Shown: one piece after another, positions 17,920-48,766 of the stretch | Layout: each line of letters opens with the position of its first letter | Numbering within the stretch: the stretch's first letter is position 1 | From: Prevotella sp. | GTDB taxonomy: Bacteria > Bacteroidota > Bacteroidia > Bacteroidales > Bacteroidaceae | DNA: 64,000 nucleotides | Assembly (NCBI GenBank): GCA_017557405.1 | Contig: JAFYYV010000028.1 | Location: 62,001-126,000, forward strand | Direction of reading: 5' to 3' | Made by a program: the position numbers and the translations under genes | Notes under the pieces: generated by a model | What the model saw: only the letters and a program-made list of their open reading frames with translations | What the model was told of the DNA's origin: nothing | Database searches by the model: none

Positions 17920-18062
17920 GGTATAAAGAGTCTAAAGGGGAGTGGAGGAGTATAAAGGGACAAAAGAAATGTCAAAAATATTCCGAATTTCACCCCCTTA
18001 AAACGGCCCTCGTTTCAAAATAATAGTCTCTCTCTCGAAAATACGTGAATTTTGGGCGTTTT

Positions 18063-18091
18063 CGGAAGTCGCTGATAGTCAACGGCTTCCG
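18063..18091 (+). ncRNA. Conserved hairpin of the dispersed element, copy B
   Basis: A 29-base imperfect palindrome beginning CGGAAG and ending CTTCCG, with a 3-base loop. Compared with copy D it carries compensatory or half-compensatory changes at four pairs, which suggests selection for the structure. Whether it is transcribed is unknown. Confidence 0.5.
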
Positions 18092-18111
18092 TTTTCTTTA
18101 CATCTGATTGA

Positions 18112-18287
18112 TGAATAAAAGCGTCATTTTTATGCGCTCAAAGCTATGGAATGACGTTGTCAAAGACCACAAATGAGGAGGTCAAAGCTATGCAATGAGC
18201 CGCTTAAAGACCACAAATGACACGCTCATTCGATAGCAATGACAAAACAAGGGCGTGAAGAATGGGAAACAAGAGCGTAAAAATGGT
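18112..18287 (+). repeat. 22-bp tandem unit array, copy B
   Basis: Consecutive units starting at 18134, 18156, 18178, 18200 and 18222 are clear (for example TCAAAGCTATGCAATGA and TCAAAGACCACAAATGA cores). Units at 18112, 18244 and 18266 are degenerate but in phase. Units differ from each other yet keep the 22-bp period. Confidence 0.8.
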
Positions 18288-18437
18288 TTTCTTTCACGTT
18301 TTTCTTTCCTAGATTGAACGAAAAAGTCGACAGCTTTTTGTCGTGTTTTTTCAAAGGAAAAAGCATAATTAATGTTAATGTCTTTTGACAAATGACACTT
18401 TTTTTCGTTCTAAATAATAGACAAGAACTAAATTTTT

Positions 18438-22261: not shown

Positions 22262-22619
22262 TTTGACAAAAAGTTGTCAACTATTTCGTTCAATCTAGAA
22301 TCGGAAAAACGTAGATTTTGCCTCTTGATCCACCGTTTCAGCCCTCGGAAATTGGTACATGTGGCATGTAAGGTTCTTAGGTAGTACATCTAACTCGCAT
22401 AGATGTAGCATGTGAGCCCCTTTTATCATAGCTGTGACAGCGAAAAATCAAGCAATTTCAGCCTCAGAAGTATACCTCTAACTAGGTGTAAAATCGCATG
22501 AAAAACGCAACCATGTGATTGCCAGCGACTTACCTCAATGTCGATTTTTGGCCATATTTCCGCCCAACTCTTCTTTTTTTCAAAATACACCCCATTTTGA
22601 GGCCCCTAAATTCAGAATT
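22262..22619 (-). repeat. Dispersed intergenic element, copy C (diverged)
   Basis: Same order as copies B and D, with its sense on the minus strand. The right block contains the identical 15-mer (CTAGATTGAACGAAA, complement at 22284-22298) and a GACAA-CTTT-TTGTC hairpin; the array is at 22350-22481. The left block is recognisable but diverged (CATTTTGAGG then AAATTCAGAATTA at 22592-22620). The hairpin of copies B and D is not clearly preserved. It fills most of the 22233-22888 gap. Confidence 0.75.
22350..22481 (-). repeat. 22-bp tandem unit array, copy C
   Basis: On the plus strand, units end with CATGTAA, CATCTAA, CATGTGA and GCTGTGA at 22371, 22393, 22415 and 22437, exactly 22 bp apart; a further in-phase CCTCTAA ends at 22481. 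The base sequence differs from arrays B and D, but period and dyad character are retained. Confidence 0.7.
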
Positions 22620-22691
22620 ATCTTGACATTATACGTTAGTTTATAATTTTGTTAGTTGGTAAGTTTATTAGTTCGTTAGTTAATGCCTTAT

Positions 22692-33376: not shown

Positions 33377-33427
33377 GTTGTTTTGTCACTCTTCCTTGCA
33401 TCGAGGTATCGAGACGCGCCGTAGGGC

Positions 33428-33626
33428 ACACACGGGGCAGGTCTTCTGACTTGCAGTCGAAAGATGAACGCCTTCCCAATCTTCTAGAGACCAGTGGCTA
33501 ATAGGTTCCTCTTCGTTCAAAGGACTGCTCACAGCTGCGGGACAGTTCAGGTCTTTCACCTGATTCCCTTTTAAGGGCCTGTGATGCATTCTTCCTGTCG
33601 GAAATTCGCACAAGCCCACCCTATGC
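33428..33626 (-). promoter_or_regulatory. Cobalamin (B12) riboswitch
   Basis: Reading the minus strand, the expected blocks appear in order: CACAGG, GGGAA, GGTGAAAGACC, CTGTCCCGC, the B12 box AGCCACTGG (complement at 33491-33499), GGGAAGG and AAGTCAGAAGACCTGCC. It lies between a consensus promoter and the BtuB-like gene and would reduce expression when adenosylcobalamin is abundant. Confidence 0.95.
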
Positions 33627-33631
33627 GAGCG

Positions 33632-33639
33632 CAAAGATA
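33632..33639 (-). promoter_or_regulatory. -7 box of the btuB-btuG operon
   Basis: TATCTTTG on the minus strand, immediately 5' of the riboswitch, so transcription would begin at its first conserved bases. Confidence 0.75.
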
Positions 33640-48281: not shown

Positions 48282-48401
48282 CTTTTTTCTTTTGAAAAAT
48301 CACGACAAAATCTTGTCAGCTTTTTCGTTCAATCTAGAACGGAAAAATGTATAGGAAAACGATTTTTCAGCTTCAATTTCCTCATTTTCCACACATGAAA
48401 T

Positions 48402-48533
48402 TGTCACATGTATCGTCTGAGCCGCTCATAGCTATGCTTTGACCCGCTTAGATGATAGCTTTGAGGCCCTCAAAGCATAGCTCTGACAACCTCAAAGCAT
48501 AGTTTTGACAAGGTCATTGCATAGCTTTGACAA
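48402..48533 (-). repeat. 22-bp tandem unit array, copy D
   Basis: Six contiguous 22-bp units beginning at 48402, 48424, 48446, 48468, 48490 and 48512. Several are near-perfect dyads such as TCAAAGCTATGCTTTGA. Confidence 0.85.
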
Positions 48534-48554
48534 GTCAGGAGAATGTAAAGAAAA

Positions 48555-48583
48555 CGGAAGTCATTGACTACCAATAACTTCCG
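48555..48583 (-). ncRNA. Conserved hairpin of the dispersed element, copy D
   Basis: Read on the minus strand, all 13 pairs of the stem form (two G-U), with a TAG loop. On the plus strand the two wobble pairs become A-C mismatches, which favours the minus strand as the functional RNA strand. Confidence 0.5.
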
Positions 48584-48766
48584 AAAACGTTCATTTTTCG
48601 CATATTTGCCCGCGAAGGAAAAGATTTTTGAAACGAGGGCCGTTTTGAGGGGGGGAAATTCGGAATTTATTTGATAAAATAAACGATTCGCATTTCGCAC
48701 GAAAAAAACCTTGAGTTGGTTGGGTAAAAAACGCCGAAATTATTTTCTGCTATGAATAAAAATTCG

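Follow-up and report, generated by a model that had tools for sequence, protein, structure and literature searches.

An interspersed repeat family with a palindromic 22-bp array in the genus of a Prevotella genome

The intergenic element that occurs three times in the window (the whole 64,000-nt stretch of Prevotella DNA analyzed here) belongs to a real interspersed repeat family, found in one genus so far, whose palindromic array is unusual and well kept. It is probably a non-autonomous, non-coding repeat that carries a putative protein-binding array acting at the DNA level and that is confined, so far, to one broad genus, its copies dispersed between the genes of Prevotella-like bacteria from the rumen. 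The combination of fixed ends and species-variable, mirror-image 22-base sites suggests selfish DNA or putative docking sites for a DNA-binding protein. The first-pass annotation of the window had proposed a protein-binding array, a non-autonomous mobile element, or a family of structured RNAs; the first two readings survive, and the third is rejected below.

Three copies in the window and at least 34 in the genome

All three window copies contain a left block, a unit core, and a right block in the order first annotated, and the 15-mer CTAGATTGAACGAAA is exact in 3/3 of them, as had been claimed; the other motifs quoted for the two long copies are indeed common to both. The elements themselves stood, with their ends adjusted by an alignment of 30 copies (Table 1). 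Two profiles were built: R1, which models 67 positions of the left-block core and contains no array, and R2, a right-block model from own-genome copies only. They matched copy 1, itself among the sequences used to build both, at 18037-18103 (R1, E=2.6e-17) and 18273-18347 (R2, E=1.9e-22). Several units of its array are of the type seen in stand-alone arrays (TCAAAGACCACAAATGA). The diverged copy 3 was not detected by R1 and is a family member by its right-block score (R2, E=1.3e-12); on a tree it falls into a second subfamily, amplified mostly in the sister species RUG11493. An Rfam scan of the window returned nothing beyond two tRNAs and a cobalamin riboswitch, none of them on the element. 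The riboswitch lies at 33419-33638 on the minus strand (RF00174, 101 bits).

Table 1. Positions of the element copies, their parts, and the RAYT-like gene
Feature	Position	Strand	Basis
Element copy 1, complete (left block, six 22-bp units, right block)	17970..18354	+	Alignment of 30 copies
Copy 1 left-block core: GAAAATACGTGAATTTTGGGCG, then a palindrome, then TTTTCTTTACAT	18037..18103	+	
Copy 1 array, six 22-bp units, the first degenerate	18116..18247	+	
Copy 1 right block, containing CTAGATTGAACGAAAAAGTCGACAGCTTTTTGTCGTGTTTTTTCA	18273..18354	+	
Element copy 2, complete	48293..48676	-	Alignment of 30 copies
Copy 2 array, six 22-bp units	48404..48535	-	
Element copy 3, diverged (L002)	22262..22628	-	Alignment of 30 copies
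Single RAYT-like gene of the own genome	L160:1237-2271 = G000 C16:297880-298911		

Allowing up to 2 mismatches, the 15-mer was found at 35 places in the genome to which the window belongs (the own genome, G000), compared with 1 for the reversed control. Thirty of these places were retrieved; 25 were elements and 5 were not (the 2-mismatch places L025, L026, L027, L029, and L030). Together with five copies identified via blastn, they gave the 30 aligned copies, and three more at C39:9461, C16:166183, and C38:132019 and one in L109 bring the own-genome count to at least 34. The genome searches scored best candidates only, with stricter filters over 40 genomes and rough R1 E-values, so weak or further copies were missed. 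The anticipated family with conserved block order thus extends beyond the three window copies, to at least 34 copies here and to RUG11493, which has 73 left-block matches; the outcome named in advance as a refutation, these copies alone with a block order seen nowhere else, did not occur.

A full copy measures ~385 bp and runs from TGTCAA to TTTTTTCA in the 30-copy alignment, with a distance from TGTCAA to CTAGATT of 338-340 bp in 25/30 copies. The median pairwise identity of copies was 0.71 (29 copies). The earlier description of conserved ends and varying cores holds between species, but not within the own genome, where the median identity was 0.72 for the array versus 0.73 and 0.70 for the left and right ends. 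The annotated 22-bp unit was borne out, since the strongest core period was 22 in 25/25 standard-length copies, whose cores, cut at 22 bp, resolve into six units with a sequence typical of each position (L002, L008, L017, L018, and L020, which have other lengths, were left out of both analyses). A pattern of four TCA-N11-TGA units in a chain, with at most 2 mismatches, occurred at 230 own-genome places, compared with 0 for the control.

Two further features of the copies were observed. In many full own-genome copies, among them representatives of both sequence types, units 3 and 5 are nearly reverse complements of each other, which would be expected of a larger inverted repeat within the array or of correction by template switching. 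Seven copies (L006, L013-L016, L019, and L020) have in common ~600-1000 bp of extra upstream sequence with an AT-rich center (such as AACTAATTAATAATCAATAAGTTATA) between short direct repeats, which are copy-specific, yet mirrored in the opposite arm.

Arrays of the same kind also stand alone. A blastn search with copy 1 found additional places that matched in the array only, and the fifteen examined (L095-L109) have approximately four to six units each, many starting with TTGTCA and ending with TGACAA, and several lying directly after a stop codon. The R1/R2 profiles found no left or right block in the 2 kb retrieved for fourteen of them, weak R1 scores in three places (E 0.36-0.93) being regarded as chance; in L109, a complete element lies ~0.5 kb from the stand-alone array. 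AT-rich pieces like those upstream of the seven copies adjoin the arrays L096, L104, and L105. At the locus of copy 1, the corresponding intergene of RUG11493 contains a five-unit stand-alone array of other sequence, and neither R1 nor R2 matches there.

Distribution across the genus

Across 200 genomes of the genus, R1 had a match in 25 (own genome included) and none in 175. Four or more matches were found in 8/200, namely, the own genome and G208 (at least 25 each), G012 (18), G142 (7), G029 (5), and G126, G137, and G209 (4 each); the remaining 17 positive genomes had one or two matches each. Among 247 genomes of the order, the own genome was the sole match, and R1 matched 8 of the 31 genomes from which named loci had come. 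One of these loci (L031) comes from the metagenome-assembled genome RUG11493, the nearest relative found; for the gene preceding copy 1, its protein is 77% identical, the highest value among 40 loci. R2 found the right block in 19/20 RUG11493 loci retrieved; beyond the two closest genomes, no right block was recognized, save weakly in 1/10 G208 loci. Arrays have six units in the two closest genomes and five in the others examined.

Following R1 matches into six other genomes yielded 20 loci. L278 of G081 runs into a contig end and was set aside, which left 19 for a period test: 10 from the at least 25 matches of G208, 5 of the 18 of G012, 2 of the 7 of G142, 1 of the 4 of G126, and the single match of G219. 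In the 135 bp following the R1 match, the strongest period was 22 in 19/19 loci. Dyad symmetry exceeded that of letter shuffles (p 0.02 or less) in 18/19, the exception being L275 (p=0.14), in a test that is lenient because letter shuffles also destroy the period. The units differ by species, for example, CAAAATGGCCCATTTTG in G208, AAAGCTATGCTTT in G012, and CGGAGCTATGCTTCGG in G142. Their middles are species-specific, while the 22-bp period and the dyad persist.

The four-unit TCA-N11-TGA pattern was present in 18/200 genomes and at many places in six (G000, G165, G062, G101, G028, and G109); the pattern sequences of five of these six (without G165) were yet other palindromes, and the matches in some of the remaining pattern-positive genomes look like single tandem repeats. 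The reversed control pattern matched in a few genomes (such as G032, 25, and G142, 27 per strand), indicating that other arrays of 22-bp period are present there. Among 60 relatives, the right-end 15-mer matched in 17, the own genome included; the other 16 had 19 places versus 12 for the reversed control in all 59 genomes besides the own one, so the 15-mer is uninformative in relatives. G012 has no right-end 15-mer despite its 18 R1 matches.

Separate amplification in two species

When 30 own copies were placed on one tree with 20 from RUG11493, 4 changes of genome label were required, compared with 16.0 in shuffles (minimum 8). The copies form two subfamilies, and the amplification of either took place mainly in a single genome. 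Copy 3 and L018 were cross-placed with the subfamily of RUG11493, as was L312, a RUG11493 copy, with the own one. The RUG11493 copies were drawn from the best R1 matches, a choice that leans to the own type and should therefore act against the separation observed.

Copy 2 is absent in G196 between the same two flanking genes, where the intergene measures 177 bp, compared with 530 bp here, and neither R1 nor R2 matches it. Divergence of the flanks prevents placement of the junction, and this empty site could reflect loss instead of gain. The neighboring genes were divergent, convergent, or tandem for 10/6/9 of 25 own copies and 5/5/9 of 19 RUG11493 copies, in a crude ORF-based count made without a genome-background comparison, which dropped 5/30 own copies, 1/20 RUG11493 copies, and 2/19 arrays with a gene missing on one side.

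Consistent with the first-pass annotation, we found no terminal inverted repeat (TIR): the best match between the own-genome consensus ends (one consensus pair) was reached by 115/1000 shuffles. Nor was a target site duplication (TSD) detected, with values of 4.60 versus 4.67 expected from mispaired flanks for the 30 own copies and 4.58 versus 4.51 for 19 RUG11493 copies (L310 skipped). The lack of TIR and TSD speaks against a classic MITE. L306 of RUG11493 is flanked by an 11-bp direct repeat, GAACGACAAAA, whose right-hand member lies 28 bp past the assumed end; it is the only match that long among the 19 RUG11493 copies. No mobilizing gene was found and no autonomous parent was seen. Specifically, no parent insertion sequence with the same ends was noticed among 53 own-genome blastn matches (from the 40 best of 171 candidates) and the loci read in this 54-contig assembly. 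A phage or plasmid origin was also tried and dropped, as blastn with one copy gave no match and two exact patterns were not found in IMG/VR contigs.

A possible role for the host

The blocks and the array might instead be kept for host use, as chromosome-organizing or gene-insulating sites and not as selfish DNA. We consider this unlikely, even if it is the best of the alternatives. The retention of unit spacing and dyad despite sequence change would fit, as would the differing five-unit array that the sister species has in the copy 1 intergene. Set against these, copy numbers vary widely in the genus, from zero R1 matches in 175/200 genomes to 73 in one relative, and G196 retains the genes on either side of copy 2 but lacks the copy itself. 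One specific host role, a six-frame stop array, drew on the observation that 42/73 changed TGA/TCA triplets in the units of the own genome and RUG11493 still encode a stop on one strand, a plain count over related, non-independent copies. It was dropped, because TGA/TCA is not kept in the G208, G126, and G219 arrays and such a role therefore fails genus-wide.

Possible mobilization by a RAYT

Array units that are palindromic, intergenic, and species-specific recall REP/BIME palindromes mobilized by a host REP-associated tyrosine transposase (RAYT), and the own genome does have one RAYT-like gene (NF047646 at E=3e-11 with 43 bits, where the cut-off is 80; Y1_Tnp at 7e-5). A degenerate array lies ~1 kb upstream of this gene, with an ORF in between. 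It was passed over by the strict array definition, under which no 22-bp array was found near 17 RAYT-like loci from eleven genomes (flanks usually of 3-4 kb per side, ~7 kb for the own gene, and almost nothing on one side of L222). As only 9/17 loci are in array-bearing genomes (G000, G062, G101, and G028), the informative count is 0/9. A relative of this gene with an E of 1e-10 or better was among the matches listed for 2/8 genomes with at least four R1 matches (G000 and G208), and none was among those listed for G012, G029, G126, G137, G142, and G209. G012 combines 18 R1 matches with zero candidate RAYT genes. The tags expected at unit feet were not kept, with GTAG at one and the other foot in 1 and 0 and CGTC in 21 and 5 of 150 units (in total, 1 and 26 of 300 unit ends). 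RAYT mobilization is thus not supported by these observations, and we regard it as improbable, slightly more so than a host role.

Probable dyad symmetry of DNA rather than RNA structure

Each unit contains on average 4.95 complementary pairs of 8 in the own genome and 6.52 of 8 in G208, compared with 1.81 and 0.16 same-letter mirror pairs, respectively. Pooled unit halves matched each other better than re-dealt halves, which did as well in only 6/2000 trials in each of the two genomes. By unit position in the own genome, re-dealt halves were as good in 6 (unit 3), 0 (unit 5), and, more weakly, 37 (unit 1) of 2000 trials, and the halves of units 2, 4, and 6 were no better than re-dealt ones (1213, 1771, and 1205 of 2000). 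As only units 3 and 5 clearly beat re-dealt halves, the dyad partly reflects unit types. Among mismatches in pairs 1-7 of the dyads, A.C and G.T numbered 47 versus 38 in the own genome and 27 versus 23 in G208; an A.C frequency at least equal to that of G.T points to the symmetry of double-stranded DNA.

This pattern bears directly on the proposal of a structured RNA family, i.e., a small RNA or a cis-regulatory leader in many copies, which has the lowest probability of the alternatives and which we reject. A left-block hairpin was kept in 82.4% of cells, compared with at most 48.1% when slid, and many copies close on the right with a GACA..TTGTC palindrome and, after it, a T-run, terminator-like by eye. 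However, the whole element (~400 nt) has a weak consensus fold, at -9.9 kcal/mol for one strand and -5.3 for the other, and covariation in this hairpin was not above shuffles, 421/500 of which reached its paired-cell share and 407/500 its covariation score. Besides the missing preference for G.T over A.C in the units, the copies have no marked gene-orientation bias, and Rfam at gathering score placed no family on the element in the window and six loci, the best hit in the six loci being a miRNA model at E 0.003 (32 bits versus a gathering score of 100).

Discussion

In the reading that we favor, a non-autonomous repeat with a protein-binding array, the element comprises three modules: a conserved left block, 5-6 dyad-symmetric sites spaced at 22 bp (approximately two helical turns), and a right block. 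It is most likely as DNA that the array acts, and we infer that protein dimers may bind it on a single face of the helix, with each unit taking one dimer. The candidate binder would be a nucleoid protein or one of the recombinase/transposase type. On this view, the repeat has spread by within-genome copying, presumably driven by that protein; each species has amplified it independently, and its intergenic insertions lie in both orientations.

A bolder and rather doubtful extension, to which we nevertheless give somewhat more credence than to any of the alternatives above, is that the 22-bp arrays, alone or in the element, form a dispersed address system. Their species-specific half-sites would co-evolve with an undescribed array-polymerizing dimeric DNA-binding protein, and the ~385-bp element would copy the address around the chromosome with neither inverted ends nor target duplication.

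The element is of the same broad kind as BOX, PINSR, BrickBuilt, and REP. The nearest in its host is PINSR, which, in the part of its description available to us, is intergenic in Prevotella, regarded as non-coding, free of TIRs, and amplified in a lineage-specific manner, with 177 and 184 copies in two strains and reports only from four related species (PMC4755523). The present element resembles it in host genus, intergenic location, lack of TIR, high copy number, and lineage-specific amplification. It is set apart by description, PINSR being 188 bp long versus ~385, with no 22-bp palindrome array mentioned in that available part (PMC4755523).

BrickBuilt of Porphyromonas gingivalis, according to the portion of the source at hand, has 1 to 22.8 units of 23 nt, IS5-like TIRs, and 18-19 copies per strain compared (PMC4596501). 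Both it and our element are intergenic repeats of Bacteroidales with a leader and a tail around a short-unit tandem array. Unlike BrickBuilt as described there, our element has a near-fixed number of 22-bp dyad-symmetric units and no TIR (PMC4596501). Variable-number units of 23 nt were not encountered in the 25 standard-length copies, all six-unit with period 22, and BrickBuilt termini of the GAGACCTTTGCA type were not in the alignments, where the ends are those given above.

BOX of Streptococcus pneumoniae, proposed to be mobile, is built of A-B(n)-C modules with boxB absent or multiple, is overrepresented between convergent genes, and has a predicted RNA fold, as far as the accessible text goes (PMC3049150). 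It is likewise a small interspersed repeat with a modular layout, the layout alone being compared. By the same partial account, it differs in its unrelated phylum, variable boxB, excess between convergent genes, and predicted RNA fold (PMC3049150).

REP/BIME sequences with RAYTs are described, in the parts consulted, as palindromic intergenic units in species-specific families, with atypical flanking structures reported for the Bacteroidetes TnpA_REP subclass 2.6 (PMC6006769, PMC3733652). Our units are also intergenic, palindromic, and species-specific. Unlike REPs as characterized there, they sit within a larger element having its own ends (PMC6006769, PMC3733652), they lack the GTAG/CGTC tag and strict arrays by RAYT-like genes, and several carriers are without a RAYT relative.

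No published account of this element was found in the open-access literature, outside which most subscription papers fall, and few interspersed-repeat descriptions were found for this part of Bacteroidota, mostly from oral species. Repeats of this kind may break assemblies and mislead searches for non-coding RNA. The family described here has clear subfamilies, separate bursts in sister species, and an array whose spacing and symmetry stay constant under sequence turnover. That combination of constant spacing with turning-over sequence makes a search for the protein that reads it possible, and the family lets one ask how a repeat that has neither inverted ends nor target duplications spreads.
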